This document shows, in pieces, positions 17,840 to 45,319 of a DNA stretch of 64,000 nt. The notes under the pieces were generated by a model. The model saw only the letters and a list, made by a program, of their open reading frames with translations. It was not told where the DNA came from and did no database searches. The position numbers and the translations under genes were made by a program. The stretch's first letter is position 1. Every line of letters starts with the position of its first letter. The stretch comes from Planctomycetaceae bacterium (GTDB lineage: Bacteria > Planctomycetota > Planctomycetia > Planctomycetales > Planctomycetaceae), in the NCBI GenBank assembly GCA_019636285.1, contig JAHBXV010000013.1, positions 62,001 to 126,000 on the forward strand, read 5' to 3'.

Positions 17840-19696
17840 TCAGACTTTATCAGAAGTACTTCCCAGACGCGGACTGCACAGTTGCGAAGAAGCAGTGATG
17901 GTCGCGGCACACAACAGGGCCAGCCCGGTCGGATATGCGACGAACAAAGTCACGAACCACGCCGCGCACAGCGAGGCGATCACCGATCCCGGCTGAAACA
18001 CCTGATAGCGCCGCGACGATAAGACTTCCGGCCAGTTGCGCAGGGCAAAGAACAACGCGAAGAAGACGCACGAACCGATCAGCGTTGGCAGTTCCCCCTG
18101 AATCAGAGAATGAATCCCCAGAGACTCGAGAGCCGACGGAGACCATGCCAGCCCCAGCCGGCTTCCATCAAGGACCAGAAACTGCTGCAATCCATACACC
18201 CCCGCCCCCGTGAGTCCGCCAATCATCAGCGACAGACTCCGTGACCAGTTCTCGAGCTTCGGGACGGCGATCCGGGTCAGTTGCAGGGCAAGGGTTCCCA
18301 GTACGGTCGCCCCCACAATCAAGGTGGCGAGTTCACCGTGGCCAAAGGGCGCGTTGGGGTCCAACAGTTTCACGCCGAGGACTCCCGCCAACGCCACCAG
18401 GCAGGAAACCGGTGTGACGAGCCCCAGCGACATTCCCGCCGTCCGCCAGTTTCGCCCCGTTGCAACCACGGGTTGCGTCCAGGACGAGGGGTTCCACCAG
18501 GCGCAGGGCGGTTCGGCGGGCGGTGTTTGCCACTGTCGGAACAACCGGGTTCCGATGACACCCGCGACGGCCAGACCCGTCACGGTCATAAGTCCCCAGG
18601 TGGGTTGCCTCGTGAAGAGGAACAGCCACGCGGCGACCAAAATGAACGCCCAGCCCCAGCCAAAGCGAGATCCATGCGACGAGTGTGGTTTGCGGTAGAC
18701 CGGCTTGGGGGGCTTCACGGGCTTGGCCGGCCTCTTCGGCCTTTCAGCCCGAGAGTCCTCGAACTGGACCGACACCAGGGGGCGATTGCGAAAATTGATC
18801 TCGACCAATTTGCGCGAACGCTTGCGAGTCGGCTGCTCGGTAAAGGCATCATCCGGGATGGCCTCCGGTCCTTCGACCTGCAGAAACTCACGTTCCAGGA
18901 CGAGAAGGTTCGGAGTCCGCTTCGCGGGATCCTTGGCGAGCGCGTGCGCCAGAGCCGGCCGATAGGCAGCGGGAATCGGCGACAGGTCCGGCGGCGCGCT
19001 CAGGTGTTTCATCAGGATTTCAGCGGTCGTCTCCCCCTCGAAGGGAAGTCGACCCGTCAGCATTTCGTACAGCATGACGCCCGTGCTGTAGACGTCGAGT
19101 TCCGGTCCATAGCGGCCGTTGGCGACTTCGGGAGCCATGTAGTAAACGGTTCCCACGCTCTCGGTGTGCTGACCCCGTCGATCCGACCCCATCTGCTTCG
19201 ACAGGCCCACATCGCCGACTTTCACCGTGCCATTTTCACGGTAGATGTTGCCGGGTTTCAGGTCGCGATGGACGATTCCGTTCTGGTGCAGATGCGACAC
19301 GCCGGACACGATTCCCCGCAGCCACGCGCGAACTTCGTCGATCGGCATTCCCCTGGGGAACGCCCGCAGCACGTCTTCGAGCGAACCGCCCCGCACGTAC
19401 TCCATGATGACCCAGCGGTCGCCGTCGCCGTCGGTCCGGACGTCGAAAATCGACACCAGATTCGGGTGTTTCAGGTTCAGGCACTGCGACACGCCGCGCA
19501 GTTCGACATCGAGATACTGTTGCAGCAGCTTGAGCGCGACCTCCTTGCCCGCGTCACTGACGGCGTAATAAACCTCGCCGAATCCGCCGCGGTGGATCGG
19601 TCGGCGAATCGTATAGCCCGTGATGGGGCTGTCGCCGGCGGCGAAAGCGAACTTGGCGGCTCGGGAGTCGGAAGTGGGCATTGTTGTGGTTGCCAT
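17840..19696 (-). CDS. Hanks-type Ser/Thr protein kinase with C-terminal membrane region
   Basis: Product of 618 residues. Residues 28-280 form a kinase domain: glycine loop HRGGFGEVYYAV (35-46), ATP lysine Lys56 in EVALKLL, catalytic loop HRDLKPGN (143-150), activation segment start GDVGLSKQ (161-168), and TVYYMAPEV. The usual DFG is DVG here; the metal-binding Asp is kept, so activity is likely. Residues 290-345 are a basic linker with Pro/Lys repeats. Five or more hydrophobic segments follow to the C-terminus. Such kinases phosphorylate proteins at the inner membrane face. Same strand and close spacing to the membrane protein and ECF sigma factor genes suggest a common signalling unit. Confidence 0.88.
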   Translation of the reverse strand: MATTTMPTSDSRAAKFAFAAGDSPITGYTIRRPIHRGGFGEVYYAVSDAGKEVALKLLQQYLDVELRGVSQCLNLKHPNLVSIFDVRTDGDGDRWVIMEYVRGGSLEDVLRAFPRGMPIDEVRAWLRGIVSGVSHLHQNGIVHRDLKPGNIYRENGTVKVGDVGLSKQMGSDRRGQHTESVGTVYYMAPEVANGRYGPELDVYSTGVMLYEMLTGRLPFEGETTAEILMKHLSAPPDLSPIPAAYRPALAHALAKDPAKRTPNLLVLEREFLQVEGPEAIPDDAFTEQPTRKRSRKLVEINFRNRPLVSVQFEDSRAERPKRPAKPVKPPKPVYRKPHSSHGSRFGWGWAFILVAAWLFLFTRQPTWGLMTVTGLAVAGVIGTRLFRQWQTPPAEPPCAWWNPSSWTQPVVATGRNWRTAGMSLGLVTPVSCLVALAGVLGVKLLDPNAPFGHGELATLIVGATVLGTLALQLTRIAVPKLENWSRSLSLMIGGLTGAGVYGLQQFLVLDGSRLGLAWSPSALESLGIHSLIQGELPTLIGSCVFFALFFALRNWPEVLSSRRYQVFQPGSVIASLCAAWFVTLFVAYPTGLALLCAATITASSQLCSPRLGSTSDKV

Positions 19697-25196: not shown

Positions 25197-25700
25197 CTAG
25201 AAACTGGCGCTGTCGGCAAGCGCGCGTTCGCTTCTGGCACGCTCGGCGAGGCGGAAGTCGACCAAGGGCCCATCGTCGTCAATGCTGGATCGGCGGGTCT
25301 TGAGCGGACTCGCATCGACATCGGATCCCGAGTCGTCCTCGACAAGCAGCACGGGCATTTCGCTGCTCAGCGGTTCGTCATCGACTTCATTCTGAGCTTC
25401 TTCGTCACGCGTCCGCTGCTCAAGCCGGTAACGAACATCGCCAATGGTCAACTCGTCGCCGAGCCGTAACCGGGCTTCCTGGCGAATACGAGAACCATTG
25501 ACGAAGGAGCCATTCGTGCTCCCCAGATCCCTCACGATGATTCGCGAGTTCACCTGGGCCACGATGCAGTGGTGGCGGGACACCTTGCGACTCGAGGTGA
25601 TCGCGACGTCGCAGTCGGCCTGCCGACCAACGAGCAGGATCGTCTTCTCGAGTGGAATTCGCGAAAACTGCGGATCCAGAGGGATCAGAAACACCGCCAT
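25197..25700 (-). CDS. FHA domain protein
   Basis: Product of 167 residues. Residues 5-90 form a forkhead-associated domain with the hallmark blocks ILLVGRQADCDV (Gly-Arg), KVSRHHCIV (Ser-x-x-His) and DLGSTNGSFVNG (Asn-Gly). The rest is an acidic, Ser-rich tail (residues 95-150) ending in a short conserved-looking FRLAERARSERALADSASF. FHA domains bind phosphothreonine, so this could be an adaptor for the Ser/Thr kinases encoded elsewhere in the window. A TATAGT hexamer lies at 25728-25733 on its strand but lacks a convincing -35. Confidence 0.88.
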   Translation of the reverse strand: MAVFLIPLDPQFSRIPLEKTILLVGRQADCDVAITSSRKVSRHHCIVAQVNSRIIVRDLGSTNGSFVNGSRIRQEARLRLGDELTIGDVRYRLEQRTRDEEAQNEVDDEPLSSEMPVLLVEDDSGSDVDASPLKTRRSSIDDDGPLVDFRLAERARSERALADSASF

Positions 25701-27757: not shown

Positions 27758-29032
27758 TTACAACGATTCCCCTTCCGCCGCGCTGCCGGGCGCGTCGGGA
27801 TTCACATCCGGGGCCTTCAGGCTGCGTGGGGAGAGCACGTCAACCTGCAGCAGGAGCCCGTATCGATCGGGAATGGGGCCTGCGACTCGTGAGGCCAGAT
27901 CGAAGAGGTCGTGGGGATCGGGGTCCATGCGATTCGCGAGTTCCGCTCGCGCAAGCTGTTCTTCCCACACGTTTGCCTCGTCGCCGAAAACTTCCGCGAG
28001 CAATTGGCGGCACTTGGCCCCGTCTGGTCCTTGCTCAAGCGCTTTCCAATAGATGAGTGCCCGTTTGAGCAGGGCCGTGCTAGACCGATTGGCCTTGAGT
28101 CCCGTGAGGAGTGTTTTCCAGGCACCAAGTCGATCGCCGCGAAACTGGCGGATTTCCGCCGCGATCACCCACGGACCAATCAGCGTCGGGTCGATTTCGC
28201 TGGCGAGAGACAGGCGCTTCAGCCGCTCGTCGAGATTGTCGGACTGCTCGCTGACGTACCACTGATAGTTCGCCAGGTGCGCCGGGTGGATCGCGACGAG
28301 GAACAACGGAACGGCAAACGCGTGGGTGGCGACGAACCCCCACCGCATGGCACGACCCCGAGTTCGCACGCGACCGAGCGACCAGCCATAGACGAGACCC
28401 ACGGCATGCGCCAGGTTGGCGATGGCCGCCCAATTGGCCCATGTCAGGAAGACCATCAGCACCAGGAATCCAAACACGAAGCGAATCGAGTCTGCCGGGA
28501 GTTCCCGTTGCAGGGAGGGATCGTCGCGCCGAATCGCCACGAGGTAGCCAAAGATCGCGCAGAGTCCGCCAGAGATGCCCACGGCGGCCTGCCCGGTGAT
28601 GGCTTCCGCGGCGATTGACACCGGGCCGGCGAACCCGATTAACAGCGGCATGACCCACCAGCTGGACCGACGTTCCACCAGGGGGCCCAATTGGGCCAGC
28701 GCGAGTCCATTGAGGAGCACGTGCCACCACGATCCATGCAGCCAGGCGCTGGCGACGATTCGCCAGCCCGCGCCCGACCACAGATCGAACATGCCGGCGT
28801 AACCCTCCCAGATTTCAGGCTCATTACCGGGCGGATTGACCATCCGCAGCGTCTGGATCGCTCCCCACTCGCGGAGCGCGGCCGACCAAGGCTGATTTTC
28901 GGTAGTGGAAAGCAGCACTCCCATGTGGAGCGCGGCCATGACCGCCAGACTCAGGCAGGTCCACGGGGCTCCGCGAACGTAACGGATCAGTCGCGGAACG
29001 AACGGCTGGCGAACCTCGGCGTGGCTCATCAC
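27758..29032 (-). CDS. rhomboid family intramembrane serine protease with C-terminal helical extension
   Basis: Product of 424 residues. Six or seven hydrophobic segments occupy residues 20-260. Rhomboid signatures are intact: WLHGSWWHVLLNG (His99, His104, Asn108), GISGG with catalytic Ser154, and LAHAVGL with catalytic His209 in the last segment. Rhomboids cleave single-span membrane proteins within the lipid phase. About 160 residues after the membrane part form a helical, TPR-like extension that may bind partners. The start codon overlaps the stop of the upstream Ser/Thr kinase by four bases (29029-29032), so the two are translationally coupled. Confidence 0.88.
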   Translation of the reverse strand: MMSHAEVRQPFVPRLIRYVRGAPWTCLSLAVMAALHMGVLLSTTENQPWSAALREWGAIQTLRMVNPPGNEPEIWEGYAGMFDLWSGAGWRIVASAWLHGSWWHVLLNGLALAQLGPLVERRSSWWVMPLLIGFAGPVSIAAEAITGQAAVGISGGLCAIFGYLVAIRRDDPSLQRELPADSIRFVFGFLVLMVFLTWANWAAIANLAHAVGLVYGWSLGRVRTRGRAMRWGFVATHAFAVPLFLVAIHPAHLANYQWYVSEQSDNLDERLKRLSLASEIDPTLIGPWVIAAEIRQFRGDRLGAWKTLLTGLKANRSSTALLKRALIYWKALEQGPDGAKCRQLLAEVFGDEANVWEEQLARAELANRMDPDPHDLFDLASRVAGPIPDRYGLLLQVDVLSPRSLKAPDVNPDAPGSAAEGESL

Positions 29033-31278
29033 TCGGATCTCTGGCCGTTCGCGTCAAAAACCGCCCCTGCATCAACGACGATCGTGCGTTCGAGGGGTCG
29101 CGGCGTCGCCCGTAGATCCTTCATCGGTTGGCTGCCGGAGCGGTGCGCGGTCGACGCTGTCGGATCGATGCCCTTGACATCTTCGGCCGTGGACTGCCGA
29201 AGATTCTTCCACCACGCGATGGCCTGTTCACGGTTCCAGTCGGAGGCATCCGCGATTCGCTGGAATCGATCTTCAAGTTCGGCCGCCGAAGCGGGTCGAC
29301 GGTCCGGGGACTTTTCCAGACAGGCCATGAGCACCGCTTCCATTTCGGGAGAGACACCACGGCCCAGGCGGACGGAGATCGGTTCGACGGGTTCTTGCAC
29401 ATGCTTCATGCAGACTTCCATCGCCTGCTCGCCGCCGAAGACTGGTGTTCCGGAAAGAAGGTAGTAGGCAACGGCTCCGACCGCATACAGGTCACTAGGG
29501 GGGCCGACTTTCTGCGGGGAGACGACCGCCTCGGGCGACATATACAGCGGTGTCCCCGTGAGACTGTTTTCCCCCGTCAGGCCCACGTCCCCTTGCGACT
29601 CGAAGGCCTTGGCGAGGCCGAAGTCGAGCACCTTCACGAAGTCGGGAATTCCTCCACGGCAGGTCAGCATGATGTTGGCCGGCTTGATATCTCGATGAAC
29701 CAAACCCAAGGTGTGTGCCTCGGCGAGCGATCCACACACCTGCGCGAGAATGTTTGCCACGCGGCCATCCGGTTGAGGACCGTGTTTCTCGATCAGCGTC
29801 TGGAGATCGATCCCCTCAAGGTACTCCATGGCATAGAACCAGGTCTCGTCGCCGGAGTTGCCATAGTCGAAGATCGCGACCGTATTGGGATGCGCGAGCT
29901 GGCTCGACAGCTGCACTTCCCTCTCAAAGCGGCGGATCCCTTCTTCCGTCGCCCGTTTCGGGTCGAGCAGTTTGATCGCGGTCGGGCGGCGCATCAGTGC
30001 GTGCCGTCCCTGGTAAACGACTCCCATTCCCCCTTCACCCAACTTGCGTTCAAGGTGATATTGCCCCAGCTTCCGAATCGCCGCCTGGTTCTCCGCCGAC
30101 TCGCGTTTCGTCTTGGCCAGCATGGCTGTATAGGCGAATAGCCCCGCTGAAACGGCCATCAGCAGCGTGATCATGCCAAAAAACATGCCGCGCACCGTGT
30201 ACAACAAGGTATATGCCTCGGCCTGGTCGACTTCCGTGATGAGGCCCATCTCGATTTCCGGCAGCCAGGTCCAGGCTCCGACCACTGGCACGCCCCGATA
30301 GTCGCGATACCCGAGGACGTTGACTCCCGTGTGGCCCGCGATGGCCTCGGCCGCCGAAAGCGTCAGCGGTTGATCGGCTCGCCGCTGACTCGAGCGAAAA
30401 CCGGTGGTCATGTCGCCGCCGGGATCGCGCGCTTCGAGAGTCAGGATTGCGTCGGTTCCCGGAACATCGGGCAAGAGGCCCAGACGCCGAAGCTCATCGT
30501 CGAAACGGCTGTTCGAAATGAATCGTCCCTTGGCATCGATCGCATAGCTTTCGCCGGACGTTCCGATCCGACCAACCTCCAGTAGCTCCGTGAATTCCAC
30601 GTCCGGGCGCATCCGCAGCGCGAGAACGGCAACGATCTGTCCCGAATCATCCCGCACGCCGCTGCCACAGAACATGACTGGCAGACCAGCCTGGAGTTCG
30701 CCGTTTTGCCCCTTCAACAAGACCCGGCTCTGAACGGGCAATGTCGTCAGCGACTCTCCGGCGAACAGGCGTTTCAGATTCTTTTCAATCGCTGACGGGA
30801 CTGCCACGCCAATCGCTTCCGGTTCGCTCGCCGCGATCACCATATTCGACTTGTCGATCACACGAAAACCGATGTATTCGTGCGCGGTGAGGATCGGCTC
30901 GAGCTGTCGGGCCAATTCCGCGCGCTCGGCCGTCAGATTGTCGTCCGGCTGGGCGTCCACCAGGCGCAGCACGCTGGCCCGAACTTCCGCGTCTCCAGCC
31001 GCGGTCGCGGCGTTGGCGTTCTGTGTCTGCATCCATGTCTGGATGGAGCTTCCGAGAATATTTCTCATCACCACCAGTTGCTCGGCCAGGTAATGGCGCA
31101 ACTGGTGTTCGATCTGAAGCTTTATGAACCAGCCGAGGGCCGCGACCACCAAGGCCGCGATAATCGGTCGCCACCAGATCTGGGATTTCAGGTAACGCCC
31201 CGACTTGTTGACCGTCTTTTCGAAGCGGTCATGCCACATCGACGACCGACCGACATGGCTCGAGATGGGTTTCGTCAT
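29029..31278 (-). CDS. membrane Ser/Thr protein kinase with extracytoplasmic Cache-like sensor
   Basis: Product of 749 residues. A first hydrophobic segment (about 36-54), an extracytoplasmic region of about 280 residues, then a second one near 345-370 (FFGMITLLMAVSAGLFAYTAMLA). The loop has PAS/Cache-like features (FRVIDKSNMVIAASEPEAIG and YAIDAKGRFISNSR). The cytoplasmic kinase domain is canonical: LGEGGMGVVYQG, AIKLLDPKR, VHRDIKPANIML, VLDFGLAKA, GTPLYMSPE. It probably senses a periplasmic signal and phosphorylates proteins in the cytoplasm. Its stop overlaps the rhomboid start by four bases. Confidence 0.9.
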   Translation of the reverse strand: MTKPISSHVGRSSMWHDRFEKTVNKSGRYLKSQIWWRPIIAALVVAALGWFIKLQIEHQLRHYLAEQLVVMRNILGSSIQTWMQTQNANAATAAGDAEVRASVLRLVDAQPDDNLTAERAELARQLEPILTAHEYIGFRVIDKSNMVIAASEPEAIGVAVPSAIEKNLKRLFAGESLTTLPVQSRVLLKGQNGELQAGLPVMFCGSGVRDDSGQIVAVLALRMRPDVEFTELLEVGRIGTSGESYAIDAKGRFISNSRFDDELRRLGLLPDVPGTDAILTLEARDPGGDMTTGFRSSQRRADQPLTLSAAEAIAGHTGVNVLGYRDYRGVPVVGAWTWLPEIEMGLITEVDQAEAYTLLYTVRGMFFGMITLLMAVSAGLFAYTAMLAKTKRESAENQAAIRKLGQYHLERKLGEGGMGVVYQGRHALMRRPTAIKLLDPKRATEEGIRRFEREVQLSSQLAHPNTVAIFDYGNSGDETWFYAMEYLEGIDLQTLIEKHGPQPDGRVANILAQVCGSLAEAHTLGLVHRDIKPANIMLTCRGGIPDFVKVLDFGLAKAFESQGDVGLTGENSLTGTPLYMSPEAVVSPQKVGPPSDLYAVGAVAYYLLSGTPVFGGEQAMEVCMKHVQEPVEPISVRLGRGVSPEMEAVLMACLEKSPDRRPASAAELEDRFQRIADASDWNREQAIAWWKNLRQSTAEDVKGIDPTASTAHRSGSQPMKDLRATPRPLERTIVVDAGAVFDANGQRSE

Positions 31279-33077: not shown

Positions 33078-34367
33078 ATGTCGACCAAGAAATATCTCAG
33101 TCTGGAAGAAGCCGCTGACTTTCTTCGGATGCGGCCGGATGAACTGCTCCGTCTGCGTGAACGCCAGGAAATTCGCGGTTTTAGCGATCGCGGAACCTGG
33201 AAGTTCAAGGGGTCCGACGTCGAAGAATTGCAGCGGCGGCTGCAACCCGACTCAAGTCCGGAAGTTCCGATGCTGACGGACGACGAAAGTGTTCATTCGT
33301 CGTCGCTTTCGAAGTCCAACTCCGACAGCGATGTCCGACTGGTCTTCGACGAAGAACCGCCTGCCGCCAGCGACGATGCCCTGCCACTTGGTCCGATTTC
33401 CGACAGCGACGTTCAATTGCTCGGCGACGACCTCAAGCCTGTCAGCGACAGCGATGTGCGGCTGCTCGACTCGGGCGCGGACGTTCCAGTGGGCCCGGTT
33501 TCCGATAGCGACGTCAAACTGCTCGATTCCAGCGACAGCGATGTCAAACTGGTTCGGCCGGGCAGCGGCTCCCTTATTGATGACGACGATTCCGCGCTGG
33601 GGGGCGACCTCGGTGGATCGTTGTTTGGTGGCGACAGCGATTTGCGTCTTGGCGACGAAAGCGGCGTCAAGCTGACCCCCGGAAGCAGCGGAATTCAGCT
33701 TTCCCGTCCGGCCGATAGCGGAATTCTTCTGGAAGGGGCCAGCAGCCTCAAACTGAAGGACGATGCCCAGTCGAGCAGCATCAAGAAGAAATCGCCCGTC
33801 GGTGACGACAAACTCGGGGCCACCATCCCTCTCATGGAGGTGGGGGGAGACGATGGCGACCGGACCGATCCCGAAGTCCCGATGCTGTTCGACGAGGAAG
33901 AATCCTATGCCCTGGGACCGCTTAGCGACGCGACCCAGGCCGAAAGCAGCGTCGTCCTGTTTGATGATGACGACGAAGACCCCGTTGCCGCCGCGGTGAA
34001 TCGCGAAACCGACAGTTCGCTCTACGATCTCGACGCCAGCGACGACGAGGCCGATGAGCTCGAAGTCGACGACGATATCTTCGGCGACGATGAAGAACTG
34101 GAAGAACTCGACGCGTTCGAAACGGACGACGAGGACTTCAGCGAAGAATTCGCCGCCGGCGGAAGCCAGGAATTCGTGGGCGGCCCGCGACCCACGCTGG
34201 CCGTCGAACCGGAAATGGGAGTCGGTGCGTTTTCGCTGATTGCCGTCTCCTGCCTGGTCCTGATGGTTGGCGCCATTATTGGTGCCGACCTGTTGCGCGT
34301 CGTGGCCGCTTCAGGAAGTGGTGTCGATAGCGGCGGCATCATCGACATGGTTGGCGGCCTCTTTTAA
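33078..34367 (+). CDS. helix-turn-helix protein with acidic SDSDV-repeat region and C-terminal membrane segment
   Basis: Product of 429 residues. Residues 1-58 look like an excisionase/MerR-like winged HTH (YLSLEEAADFLRMRPDELLRLRERQEIRGF, then DRGTWKFKGSDVEELQ). Residues 60-370 are strongly acidic and low complexity; the motif SDSDV(R/K/Q)L recurs at about residues 81, 106, 124, 144 and 151. A later variant is GDSDLRL. A membrane segment follows near 378-402 (FSLIAVSCLVLMVGAIIGADLL), leaving a short Ser/Gly tail. If the topology is right, a DNA-binding domain is tethered to the membrane by a disordered, phosphorylatable linker. GGAG is about 10 bases before the ATG. Confidence 0.75.
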   Translation: MSTKKYLSLEEAADFLRMRPDELLRLRERQEIRGFSDRGTWKFKGSDVEELQRRLQPDSSPEVPMLTDDESVHSSSLSKSNSDSDVRLVFDEEPPAASDDALPLGPISDSDVQLLGDDLKPVSDSDVRLLDSGADVPVGPVSDSDVKLLDSSDSDVKLVRPGSGSLIDDDDSALGGDLGGSLFGGDSDLRLGDESGVKLTPGSSGIQLSRPADSGILLEGASSLKLKDDAQSSSIKKKSPVGDDKLGATIPLMEVGGDDGDRTDPEVPMLFDEEESYALGPLSDATQAESSVVLFDDDDEDPVAAAVNRETDSSLYDLDASDDEADELEVDDDIFGDDEELEELDAFETDDEDFSEEFAAGGSQEFVGGPRPTLAVEPEMGVGAFSLIAVSCLVLMVGAIIGADLLRVVAASGSGVDSGGIIDMVGGLF

Positions 34368-34820: not shown

Positions 34821-35657
34821 ATGCTTCGTCGCCGACCCGAATTGAATGGTTCTTTGTCGCTGTCGAGCGGTCGCTGGTCCCTGCTGGCCATCGGATTCGC
34901 CTTGCTGGCCTCGGGCTGCATTTCCGCTCCCAATCGCCAGTTGCAGGGGAGCCTGTTGCGGTCTCAGCAGTTGTACGCCCAGAACCAGGCCCTGTCGCAG
35001 CAGCGCGATCAGTACGCGGCTGAACTGTCGATGGAACGCTCGTCCGCGATGGCGATGAAGCAGCAGCTCGATGTCGCCAACCAGCGACTGAACAACATGC
35101 TGTCGAGCAACGGCCAGCTTGAGCAGCGGATGCAGAGCATGCTGGCCAGCCAGTCGTCACCGCTGTCGGGCAACGCAATCCGCAGCCTGCAAGAACTTCG
35201 CCAACGATTTCCGCATTTTGAATTTGACCCCGCCACGGGCGTGCTGAAGTTTCCGACCGACATTCTGTTCGACTCTGGCAGCGACCGCATTCGTCCCGAA
35301 CCGCTGCGGGCACTCCAGGAATTTGCCCAGATCATGACGGGGTCCGACACACGGAATCTGAAACTGCTCGTCGTCGGCCACACCGATGACCGCCCGATCG
35401 GGAAGCCCAACACGAAGGCGCAGCATGCCACCAACTGGCACCTGTCGACCAACCGTGCGGACGCCGTCGTGCTGGCACTCTCGAAAGCGGGTGTTGCCGA
35501 TGCCCGGCTGGGAGCCGCCGGTTACAGCATGTACCAGCCGCGATCGCCGAACACATCGGAAGACGCCCGTCAGCGGAATCGCCGCGTCGAGATCTTCATT
35601 CTGCCGCCCGATTCACCGCTGGCCGGAAACTGGGATCCGGCCAATATGCTGAAGTAG
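34821..35657 (+). CDS. OmpA-family lipoprotein (peptidoglycan-binding C-terminus)
   Basis: Product of 278 residues. A leader ends in the lipobox LASGC (Cys32), a coiled-coil region of about 90 residues is rich in Gln (LQGSLLRSQQLYAQNQALSQQR), and then comes an OmpA/MotB C-terminal domain. The latter has FPTDILFDSGSDRIRPE, VVGHTDDRPIG, LSTNRADAVVLAL and RQRNRRVEIFI, the residues that bind diaminopimelate-containing peptidoglycan. It likely links the outer membrane or a cell-surface assembly to the wall. AAGGAG is 6 bases before the ATG at 34821; a longer frame with 33 extra codons has no leader. Confidence 0.88.
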   Translation: MLRRRPELNGSLSLSSGRWSLLAIGFALLASGCISAPNRQLQGSLLRSQQLYAQNQALSQQRDQYAAELSMERSSAMAMKQQLDVANQRLNNMLSSNGQLEQRMQSMLASQSSPLSGNAIRSLQELRQRFPHFEFDPATGVLKFPTDILFDSGSDRIRPEPLRALQEFAQIMTGSDTRNLKLLVVGHTDDRPIGKPNTKAQHATNWHLSTNRADAVVLALSKAGVADARLGAAGYSMYQPRSPNTSEDARQRNRRVEIFILPPDSPLAGNWDPANMLK

Positions 35658-41526: not shown

Positions 41527-43176
41527 CTACTTCAGGGCTGCCGCGAGGGTGTCGAGGAAGCCCTTGAGCTGACGGCTGCGCACGGGGTGCTGCAGCTTTC
41601 GCACGGCCTTCGCCTCGATCTGCCGGACACGTTCGCGGGTCACCTTGAAGATGCGGCCGACTTCCTCGAGGGTGTACGTGTAACCGTCACCCAGGCCGTA
41701 TCGCAGCTTGATGATTTCCCGCTCGCGATAGGTGAGCGTCTTGAGGACCGACTCGATCTTCTCCTTCAGCATCTCCTGAGTGGCGGCGTTGACCGGGCTT
41801 TCGGTCGCGTCGTCTTCGATGAAGTCGCCGAAGTAGCTGTCTTCGCTCTCGCCAACCGGGCGATCCAGGCTGATGGGGTGCCGCGAGATTTTCATCACGC
41901 GACGGGTTTCTTCGAGAGAAACGCCGGCGGCTTCCGCCGTTTCCTCCAGCGTCGGCTCGCGGCCCATTTCCTGCAGCAGCTTCTTGCTGACTTTACGGAG
42001 CTTGGACATCGTCTCGATCATGTGGACCGGGATGCGGATGGTCCGCGCCTGGTCCGCGATCGCCCGCGTGATCGCCTGGCGAATCCACCACGTCGCATAC
42101 GTGGAGAACTTATAGCCGCGGCGATACTCGTACTTGTCGACCGCCCGCATCAGGCCCGTGTTCCCTTCCTGGATCAGGTCCAGGAAGCTCAGGCCGCGGT
42201 TGCGATACTTCTTGGCGATCGACACGACCAGCCGCAGGTTCCCACCCGACAGATCGCGCATTGCCTGTTCGTAGGCGGCAAAACGCTCTTCGATTTCGCC
42301 CATCCGCTTGCGTAGCGTATCGGGCGTTTCGAGCGTCATCATCTTGAGGTCGCTCAACTCTTTTTCGAGGTTCGAGCGTTCTTCCTTCGCCGACTTCAGA
42401 TGCTTGAGGCTTTCGATCTGCCGCTTGAGATCGGTCATCCGACGCGAGATCTGCTCCAGCCGCTTCATCACCGGCTGCAAACGCTGAGTTCGCAGGCTCA
42501 GTTCTTCCAGCAGCGTCACCATCTTGCGACGGCGGACATACCGGCGGTGCTGAAGCTCTTTCTTGTCCGCGGCCGAAGTCTCCGCGCCCATTTCCTGTTC
42601 GAAGTCCGCGATACATTGCCGACGCAGCGTTTCCAGCGTCCGCAGGTTGTGCGGCATCCGTCCCAGGATCTGGTTCTTTTCCAGACCTTCGGTGACCGAG
42701 ACCTTGATGGTCCGATCGAACGGCAGTTCGCCGGCGTGGACTTTCGTCAGCACGTCGACCGACAGCTTGAGCGCGTAATCGCACTCCAGCAGGTGCCGAC
42801 GAAAGCGCTTCCGCGTCACTTCGATCTTCTTGGCGAGCGAAATTTCCTGCTCGCGAGTGAGCAAAGGAATCTCGCCCATCTGCGTCAGGTACATCCGCAC
42901 CGGATCGTCGATCCGGCGCGACTTGTCTTCGGCCGCTTCCTTAGCCTTCGGCTTGGCTCGTTGCGAGCGCTTCTTCGTGTCTTCGATAAAGATGCCGACC
43001 TTTTCGTCGGCAACGATCTCGAGTCCCATTTCATCGATCACGGCGAGAAGGTTGTCGAGCTTCTCGGGATCGGGAGCCTCGTCCGGAAGGTACTTGTTGA
43101 CCTGCGAGTAGGTCAAAAATCCTTGTTCCCGGCCCAGGGCGATGAGTTTATCGAGGCTCTCATCAAGTCGATGCAC
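41527..43176 (-). CDS. rpoD: principal RNA polymerase sigma factor
   Basis: Product of 549 residues. A sigma 1.1-like N-terminus of about 70 residues, an acidic-basic linker with [18 protein letters not shown] (region 1.2), and a long nonconserved insert. Region 2 is complete: [36 protein letters not shown] and [13 protein letters not shown]. Region 3, and region 4 with [15 protein letters not shown] and [17 protein letters not shown], complete it. It directs transcription of housekeeping genes. Start GTG at 43176 with AAGGAG 6-7 bases upstream. A TTGACA lies on its strand at 43279-43274, 98 bases upstream of the start, but the -10 is poor (AGACTT). It follows dnaG, as in the classic macromolecular synthesis operon, though rpsU is absent here. 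Confidence 0.95.
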
Positions 43177-43336: not shown

Positions 43337-45319
43337 TCAAGAGGGGGCCGGATGCTGCGATCCCGACTCCGCTCCCGAAGAACCACCTGCCGGGGCTGTC
43401 TTCCGCCCGGCGGGATTGCGATACACGGCGAACTGCGAACGCAGCAGATCGCGCGTCTTGTCGTTCAGCGACTTACCCACTTCCTGACGGGATCGTTCCG
43501 CCAGCAGCGAGTCACGCTCTTGACGCCATTTCAAACGATTCGCGACCGAACGCAGTTGTTCGGCCGCCCGATGGGGGTCTTTGGCGGCATCCTTTGCCGG
43601 CCCGTATCCCTGACCTTCATTCCGCGACTGGTCATCCAGCCAGACGAGAACACCTTTGAGGACTGGGGATTCCACGCTGGCGAGGAGTCGGGAAAAAGTC
43701 GGTTCCTCGCCGTGGTCGGCCAAATCGAAGCAAGAGCACACCAACTCCCGAATTACGGCGTTGCGGAAATGGTCCGGCCCTACGAGGGCTCGGACATCTT
43801 CAATCATACGCGGGGAGGCAAGCACCCCCTTCAACAACTCGCACTCCAGCACATCGTCTCCCCCGCGAGCTTGCTGCAAAGATTCGGCAGCCCGCCGAAG
43901 CTCGTCGTCGGGACCGGCGTCTGATGATCCGGTTGGCGAAGGTTTTCGGCGCTCATGGGCTCGGGCAGCATCCCGACGCAGTTGCTGCAATCGTTTCCGC
44001 AATTCCGATTCCGCGATTGACACTTTTCGCGACAACCCTTCGATGAGGGCAGTTTCGCGGACCGTTGCGGCCATCCCAGGTGCTTCGGCCAGTAAGGCCA
44101 GCATTCCTTCCGCGACGCGCAGTCGACCATCCAGACTCGCCATGTCGTGACGGTCTCGCAGAATCTGCCACCAGAATTCCCAGCCTTCCGGGGCTTCATC
44201 CAGCAATTGCCGCAAATTGTCGGGGCCGCGTGCATGCAGGAATTCGTCGGGATCCAGTTCATCGGGCAGCAGCAGGACGCGCAAATCGACATCCTGCGAA
44301 AGGAACTTGGGCAACGCCCGTTCCGCTGCCCGCTGGCCCGCCTCGTCGCCATCGAACAGCAGAATCACCCGCCGGGCAAACCGCCTTAAAAGCTGGACCT
44401 GGGTTTCGGTGAAGGCCGTTCCCAGCGAACCGACCACGTTCCAGAGGCCGGCCTGATGGCACTTAATACAATCCGTGTAACCTTCGACAACGACCGCCGT
44501 CCCGGATCGGCTGATGGCATCCCGGGCGGAAGGGAGGCCATACAGAGTTTTGCTTTTCTGAAAGACGGGCGTTTCCGCGCTGTTCTTATACTTGGCCGCC
44601 TTCACGACCGTCCCGTCGGAACGGGTCCACGACTCGGAATCCGGCAGGACGCGTCCTCCAAATGCCACGACGCGCTGTCGCTCGTCGCGAATGGGAAACA
44701 TGACGCGGTCACCGAAAAAATCGCCGTAACCGTGCCCATCATCCCGCTTCCGGGCCAGGCTGGCTTCAGCCAATTGCTCCGCCGTGAAGCGGCCGCCCGT
44801 TCGCGACATCAGCCAGGCCTGGTTGGTCTGCCGGGGATGAAAACCCAGCTTACAGCGGCTGATGGTTTCCGCCGAGAAGCCGCGCGACTGCAAATACTTC
44901 CGTGCGGCCTCGGCAATCGGTTCGTTCAACAGAACCTGGTGAAACAAATCCTCGGCCCACGCCATAACTTCGTACAACGTCGTTGTTTTTGACGCCGAGT
45001 AGCGATCGGAGGGCGACCGCCGGGGCATTTCGAGGCCGGCCCGCTTGGCCAAGAGTTCCAGCGCCTCGGGGAACGACAGGCTTTCGGCCTTCATGAGGAA
45101 CGAGAAGCAGTCGCCCCCCTCGTTGCAGGCCCAGCAGCGGTAGGTCTGCCGTTCCGGGGAAACGGTGAACGACGGATTCGTATCGGGATGAAACGGGCAG
45201 AGAGCCTTGAAGGCCCGGCCGCCGCGTTCCGGTTGCAGGGCGACCGATTCGCCGATGAGGGCGACAAGATCGGTTTTTGCCCGAACCAACTCCTTGAAGT
45301 CGTCGTTACCCCCCAGCAT
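43337..45319 (-). CDS. dnaG: DNA primase
   Basis: Product of 660 residues. CHC2 zinc finger: Cys41-x2-His44 in LCPFHPD, and Cys62-x2-Cys65 in RCWACNEGG. The catalytic TOPRIM core has VVVEGYTDCIKCHQ (Glu and Asp ligands) and ILLFDGDEAGQRAAER. An N-terminal RNA polymerase-like part has RDERQRVVAFGGRVL. The C-terminus forms a DnaB-binding helical region. It synthesises RNA primers at the replication fork. The ATG at 45319 is followed directly by the conserved opening. rpoD follows 160 bases downstream on the same strand. Confidence 0.95.
   Translation of the reverse strand: MLGGNDDFKELVRAKTDLVALIGESVALQPERGGRAFKALCPFHPDTNPSFTVSPERQTYRCWACNEGGDCFSFLMKAESLSFPEALELLAKRAGLEMPRRSPSDRYSASKTTTLYEVMAWAEDLFHQVLLNEPIAEAARKYLQSRGFSAETISRCKLGFHPRQTNQAWLMSRTGGRFTAEQLAEASLARKRDDGHGYGDFFGDRVMFPIRDERQRVVAFGGRVLPDSESWTRSDGTVVKAAKYKNSAETPVFQKSKTLYGLPSARDAISRSGTAVVVEGYTDCIKCHQAGLWNVVGSLGTAFTETQVQLLRRFARRVILLFDGDEAGQRAAERALPKFLSQDVDLRVLLLPDELDPDEFLHARGPDNLRQLLDEAPEGWEFWWQILRDRHDMASLDGRLRVAEGMLALLAEAPGMAATVRETALIEGLSRKVSIAESELRKRLQQLRRDAARAHERRKPSPTGSSDAGPDDELRRAAESLQQARGGDDVLECELLKGVLASPRMIEDVRALVGPDHFRNAVIRELVCSCFDLADHGEEPTFSRLLASVESPVLKGVLVWLDDQSRNEGQGYGPAKDAAKDPHRAAEQLRSVANRLKWRQERDSLLAERSRQEVGKSLNDKTRDLLRSQFAVYRNPAGRKTAPAGGSSGAESGSQHPAPS

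Follow-up and report, generated by a model that had tools for sequence, protein, structure and literature searches.

A Planctomycetota-wide family of predicted membrane-anchored winged-helix proteins with envelope-gene neighbours

Introduction

What might a protein do that carries a DNA-binding-type helix-turn-helix (HTH) at its N-terminus, continues through a long acidic linker and ends in a single membrane helix, and is such a protein peculiar to one genome? The question is raised by a gene in a 64,000-nucleotide stretch of DNA from a Planctomycetaceae bacterium, referred to here as the window, whose genome comprises 6.37 Mb in 113 contigs. Planctomycetes have lost ftsZ, the DNA of Planctomycetia is highly condensed, and in Planctopirus limnophila, a laboratory strain for which deletion mutants exist, 151 of 748 essential genes, about a fifth, are of unknown function (excerpts of PMC10632474). 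Because ftsZ has been lost, a conserved tether in these bacteria would be of interest. The available excerpts of the main text of the P. limnophila essentiality paper contain no mention of helix-turn-helix, MerR, excisionase or OmpA (PMC10632474), and the protein is not named among the PVC signature proteins in the accessible part of PMC3444138. From its sequences, the gene appears to belong to a phylum-wide, membrane-anchored winged-HTH family with conserved envelope-gene partners, and we found no report of this family or of its function in the open-licence literature.

Results

Architecture of the protein

The gene occupies 33078..34367 on the forward strand, starts with ATG and encodes 429 residues. 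A preliminary description of this DNA had claimed an HTH-type N-terminus, about 300 acidic residues with at least five SDSDV(R/K/Q)L units, and a single C-terminal membrane segment, and all three parts of this order were borne out. Residues 6–54 (33093..33239) match HTH_17 (PF12728) with an E-value of 2.2e-7 and a score of 31.5 bits, the cut-off being 27, and the Pfam scan of the whole protein, at E up to 0.1, returned no other domain. The linker, residues 57–380 (33246..34217), is acidic and Ser-rich; its 324 residues comprise 27% D+E, 6% K+R and 14% S, giving a net charge of −69, and D, S, L and G are abundant in it while Q makes up 1.5%, a composition suggesting that it is probably disordered. 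The one hydrophobic segment in the protein, as judged by hydropathy alone and without TMHMM, is the predicted transmembrane helix at residues 383–401 (34224..34280; hydropathy 2.51 over 19 residues). It is followed by a 28-residue C-terminal tail (residues 402–429, 34281..34364), which is probably periplasmic; the positive-inside rule gave no preference for either topology, with a median charge of −1 on both sides of the helix. A promoter scan returned no candidates (0 found), with nothing exceeding chance.

Distribution and conservation of the family

Using the N-terminal 93 residues as query, at least 172 of 198 Planctomycetia genomes matched at E ≤ 1e-3, mostly with one copy each, a lower bound given that three genomes unmatched by that query (G004, G024 and G048) match the HTH profile. 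With the HTH profile itself, at least 228 of 294 Planctomycetota genomes matched at E ≤ 1e-5. The homologue searches covered two phyla, Planctomycetota and, as a control, that of a Bradyrhizobium, in which 13 of 200 genomes matched, more weakly (best E 1.9e-10). Eight of the 14 frames matched in the control phylum are 67–125 residues long and six are 402–426 residues long, and all 14 lack an acidic arm as well as any hydrophobic segment as strong as the family's.

For the structural comparison, 92 loci were available, and the genomes from which loci were fetched (40 of the class and 20 of the phylum) were chosen for contiguity and spread and not at random; 89 proteins were measured, two truncated members (L019 and L034) and one duplicate having been dropped. 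All 89 complete and distinct members, the window's included, show the full plan, in which the HTH is followed by an acidic linker and then by a membrane helix near the C-terminus; linker D+E is 0.15–0.39 and K+R 0–0.11. Loss of linker composition among orthologues had been posed beforehand as grounds for refuting the description, and in its place we found the acidic linker and membrane helix throughout. HTH_17 was matched by all 54 HTH segments of our alignment (A1). The tail is 23–37 residues long in 69/69 proteins of the class and 5–105 in the 20 from elsewhere. At the membrane end, the alignment reveals a juxtamembrane D/E-L-x-R-like motif spanning the end of the helix and the start of the tail, present in a loose form in 66 of 69 class proteins and, in a stricter version with W/Y at its end, in 53 of 69; Pfam found no family common to two or more of 57 membrane ends. 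Taken at the level of sequence, the protein appears to represent, in this genome, a family of single-pass proteins of the inner membrane that spans Planctomycetota, and is not an oddity of this window.

Linker repeats and a paralogue

There are exactly five copies of SDSDV[RKQ]L in the linker, occupying residues 82–88 (33321-33341), 108–114 (33399-33419), 123–129 (33444-33464), 142–148 (33501-33521) and 152–158 (33531-33551), all on the forward strand and together spanning 33321..33551. When the linker was permuted 20,000 times, no unit arose in 19,994 cases, a single one arose in six, and more than one never did. Degenerate relatives follow these units (SDLRL, SGVKL, SGIQL, DSGILL and SSLKL), and EVPML is present twice in the linker. 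A degenerate DNA pattern for the unit matches five times in the 6.37-Mb genome, the reversed control pattern twice; all five matches (5/5) fall within this gene, and the unit was accordingly rejected as a genome-wide protein motif. A homology search with the linker returned only itself at E up to 10. Of the 69 class proteins, 50 contain one or more exact units and 46 contain two or more; the units are absent from 19/69 class proteins and from 20/20 proteins outside the class.

A survey for paralogues with the same linker had been suggested in the preliminary description. The genome does hold a paralogue with the same plan (G000:C21:111727-113163, L002), a 487-residue frame with an acidic linker, but its repeats differ: in place of SDSDV it has DSG[IL]xL units, of which we counted nine by eye. 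The family's membrane-end profile alone retrieves it (E 6.2e-9), and its HTH is weak, with MerR_1 just above and HTH_17 below the Pfam cut-off. Other recurring linker motifs were seen by eye outside the class, about GSGSGLLDLTRESDDTSLGA; EETDETLLDLGNLS; loci with their own recurring motifs are L173, L183-L185, L187, L170 and L172, L177-L182. Since SDSDV is found in part of the class, DSG[IL]xL in the paralogue and other motifs outside the class, the repeats are, on this comparison, lineage-specific and the SDSDV units are one lineage's version of a linker whose character is conserved.

Fold of the HTH domain

The preliminary description had also said that it would be refuted if the N-terminus did not fold as an HTH; the segment does model as a winged HTH of the MerR/Xis type. 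The AF2 model from the 54 sequences of A1 has a mean pLDDT of 79.6, about 90 over residues 11–50, and its secondary structure runs strand, helix, helix, strand, strand, helix. In a Foldseek search with this model, the RacA–DNA (rank 1) and BldC–DNA complexes came out on top with E of about 0.01–0.05, and VIA-align gave Z-scores of 7.4 for Pukovnik Xis, 7.3 for BldC, 6.2 for RacA and 5.6 for pSK1 Par. CbpM (by Foldseek and VIA-align) and DafA (by Foldseek) are also fold neighbours, both solved in chaperone complexes in which the partners are J-domain or Hsp70–Hsp40 proteins. The Foldseek E-values are only ~1e-2, and Z-scores of 6–7 can reflect common arrangements; the scores indicate a common MerR/Xis-type fold and not what the domain does. 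A PDB sequence search with the single protein gave nothing useful, and the PDB matches of the HTH profile, mainly designed repeat proteins, were discounted.

Residues of the domain point in two directions. In the wing, positions R33, K42 and K44 carry K/R in 83%, 91% and 97% of 88 sequences, respectively. The recognition helix opens with an acidic turn, with D/E at position 21 in 78/88 and at position 22 in 67/88, and position 37 is near-invariantly acidic (86/88), where D37 could cap the wing turn. The net charge of the 88 distinct HTH segments has a median of −1 (−2 with another domain cut) compared to +3 for 13 other HTH_17 matches of the genome, 11 above the Pfam cut-off and two below it (Mann–Whitney p about 6e-6, the family sequences not being independent of one another). 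With two further control HTHs, L118 (above the cut-off, +7) and L122 (below it, +1), the median of 15 stays at +3. Weighing the modelled fold with these residues, we put the odds close to even, with chromosomal DNA only just the likelier target of the HTH.

Envelope genes beside the HTH gene

A conserved envelope-gene neighbourhood, which is new here and was not part of the preliminary description, accompanies the family. In the window, the HTH gene is followed after a 453-bp gap by a gene for an OmpA/Pal-like lipoprotein (34821..35657, forward strand; PF00691, E 6.8e-15), whose start and lipobox, LLASGC, were read by eye. In PF00691 and lipobox it resembles the Pal/OmpA peptidoglycan-binding lipoproteins, while here it adjoins the gene of an HTH membrane protein. 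The OmpA profile found 23 ORFs over the 92 loci, 21 of which come directly after the HTH gene and share its strand; of the other two, that of L188 is directly downstream on the opposite strand and that of L067 about 6.5 kb upstream. The OmpA-adjacent loci include some from outside the class (L170, L171, L174-L176, L181 and L186). By the same profile, a same-strand OmpA gene directly downstream is absent in 71/92 loci; seven loci (L012, L019, L020, L028, L031, L034 and L091) have <1.7 kb of sequence after the HTH gene. In the window's own family, the OmpA-like orthologue is found once in each of 15/15 genomes, and in G008, G013, G033, G045 and G049 it lies 6–9 kb upstream on the same strand.

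The other partner lies upstream. It is a small protein of ~100–150 residues with a secreted-looking N-terminus and a predicted small beta sheet, and is probably secreted; examples from alignment A3 are L103:7374-7760 (reverse strand) and L083:7158-7619 (forward strand). Of 59 Planctomycetia genomes sampled, 29 were found to have it, in a single copy each, and in every one of these 29 it immediately precedes the HTH gene in the same orientation. Outside the class there are five weak matches (E 1e-4 to 1e-6), and these too lie immediately 5′ of the HTH gene. No upstream partner was found in the 15 genomes of the window's own family, the window's genome included. Pfam gave no family for the three members scanned, and comparison of the fold with the PDB gave no convincing match (best E 0.26).

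Discussion

Comparison with known systems

RodZ has an N-terminal HTH, a linker, a single membrane helix and a C-terminus on the outer side; its HTH binds MreB and its linker is basic. The protein described here shares the HTH, linker and single membrane helix, but its domain is HTH_17 and not HTH_25, which gave no Pfam match at E up to 0.1, and its linker is acidic. ToxR and CadC have OmpR/PhoB-type domains and a periplasmic sensor domain. The likeness to these and to other transmembrane transcription regulators (TTRs) lies in the cytoplasmic N-terminal HTH and the membrane helix; unlike ToxR and CadC, the protein has HTH_17 with no Trans_reg_C match in Pfam, and a 28-residue tail in place of a folded periplasmic sensor. 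RacA of Bacillus subtilis and pSK1 Par, which are chromosome or plasmid partition proteins, share the MerR-type winged HTH fold and, to our knowledge, have no membrane helix; the polar anchoring of RacA depends on DivIVA. Both also differ from this protein in their coiled coil and disordered C-terminus (excerpts of PMC11500499). The likeness considered here is one of fold.

The closest in plan is RocS of Streptococcus pneumoniae, a chromosome-segregation protein in which a MerR-type HTH leads through a coiled coil to an amphipathic helix, the latter being largely replaceable by a transmembrane segment (excerpts of PMC11500499). Going by the published description of RocS, the two share an N-terminal MerR-type winged HTH, a middle spacer and a C-terminal membrane anchor. 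The coiled coil of RocS, however, includes DUF536 with three conserved glutamines, whereas here the linker is acidic with no DUF536 match and 1.5% Q; the RocS anchor is an amphipathic helix, whereas here a hydrophobic, transmembrane-like segment is accompanied by envelope-gene partners. Identification of the protein as RocS was rejected, as it has neither DUF536 nor an amphipathic anchor.

Proposed role and its alternatives

The preliminary description proposed a membrane-anchored regulator that reads kinase activity, or else a chromosome tether, and this interpretation is partly supported. From the observed domain order, its conservation and the gene neighbourhood, we infer as the best explanation an envelope-coupled membrane tether, RocS/RacA-like in plan; we hold it tentatively, its chances falling a little short of even. 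The HTH would act as a hand that holds a cytoplasmic target, and the acidic arm as an entropic spacer keeping the HTH off the membrane and perhaps competing with DNA for that domain. At the other end, the membrane helix with its short tail would couple the protein to periplasmic partners, namely the small secreted protein of many lineages and the peptidoglycan-binding OmpA/Pal-like lipoprotein, and it is these envelope-gene partners that make us favour a link between the cytoplasmic target and the wall. The plan kept in 89/89 members, the spread through the phylum, the RacA/pSK1 Par/BldC fold, the basic wing, the envelope neighbours and the conserved membrane end all count for a tether, while the low HTH charge, the acidic start of the recognition helix, the CbpM and DafA folds, the modest Foldseek and Z-scores, a topology that charge does not settle, the 71/92 loci in which OmpA is not adjacent, the 453-bp gap in the window and the upstream partner missing from the window's own family count against it. 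The family is a concrete candidate for chromosome–envelope coordination in Planctomycetota because it is phylum-wide and mostly single-copy, ties a winged HTH to the membrane and has an adjoining lipoprotein gene in several lineages. A fuller version, in which the winged HTH grips the nucleoid and the membrane end and small periplasmic protein couple it to the peptidoglycan-bound OmpA/Pal-like lipoprotein in a phylum-specific trans-envelope linkage, is in our estimate improbable; if true, it would mean that bacteria of a phylum that lost FtsZ have conserved a tether between chromosome and wall.

The points against a tether are in part those that would speak for protein docking. An HTH whose median charge is −1 and whose recognition helix starts with acidic residues, unlike the genome's other HTH_17 matches, with CbpM and DafA from J-domain or Hsp70–Hsp40 complexes among its fold neighbours and a near-invariant acidic position 37 (86/88), may bind a protein and not DNA; the envelope neighbours would suit the resulting cytoplasm-to-envelope scaffold, like RodZ or CbpM with the arm as spacer. 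We regard this as rather unlikely, given that R33, K42 and K44 of the wing are conserved as basic residues, D37 could simply cap the wing turn, and the DNA-bound BldC, RacA and Xis structures match about equally or better. Lower still we place a one-component transmembrane transcription regulator that acts from the membrane or is released by intramembrane proteolysis, the periplasmic partners doing the sensing. TTRs are defined for working purposes as having a predicted DNA-binding domain and a membrane region, and 50,302 have been counted (excerpts of PMC10269533); this protein has both a Pfam DNA-binding domain above its cut-off (HTH_17) and one transmembrane region, the minimum required (a hydrophobic helix, as judged by hydropathy). 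The secreted gene, which adjoins in 29/29 genomes having it, is possibly sensor-like, and a rhomboid protease gene (27758-29032) is nearby in the window. The tail past the membrane is only 23–37 residues in 69/69 class proteins and therefore leaves no sensor domain, and mostly single-copy presence across the phylum would be unusual for a niche regulator; such a regulator seems quite unlikely.

A further idea, which goes back to the preliminary description, is that kinases modify the Ser-Asp-Ser-Asp units and FHA proteins recognise them, so that the protein would report Ser/Thr kinase activity. The FHA protein (25197-25700) and both Ser/Thr kinases (17840-19696 and 29029-31278) that the description listed in the window are real, all three lying on the reverse strand; the second kinase adjoins the rhomboid gene and has in its N-terminal half a weak dCache_1 match, below cut-off. 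With five regular Ser-rich units beside them, and with a kinase site in the wing of RocS at which a phosphomimetic change abolishes DNA binding (excerpts of PMC11500499), a phospho-switch has some appeal. That RocS site, however, sits in the HTH and not in a linker, the exact unit is missing from the 19 class proteins and 20 others noted above and is thus restricted to part of the class, and BLAST clustering of the flanks placed a relative of kinase 29029-31278 near the HTH gene in just 5/72 loci, the window included. A phospho-relay via the neighbouring kinases was rejected on this count, the claim that the protein reads kinase activity found no support, and we judge a phospho-switch to be highly improbable.

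Other genes near the locus

Several further genes recur around the HTH gene. In the window, RpoD (41527-43176) and DnaG (43337-45319) lie 7–9 kb from it, and in seven loci of the phylum from outside the class (L171, L174-L176, L181, L186 and L188) a DnaG-type cluster, Pfam-confirmed in L176 only, lies 1.7–4.4 kb downstream; by eye, most of these seven loci have an RpoD-like cluster beyond the DnaG-type one. The linkage of RpoD/DnaG to the HTH gene is possibly old. A large CcsA/ResB-like protein is encoded downstream in 13 class loci (L074-L078, L080, L083, L095, L096, L099, L101, L103 and L104), with domains Pfam-confirmed for L083 only, and 10 of these 13 loci also carry a probable lipoprotein or secreted protein of 238–558 residues.
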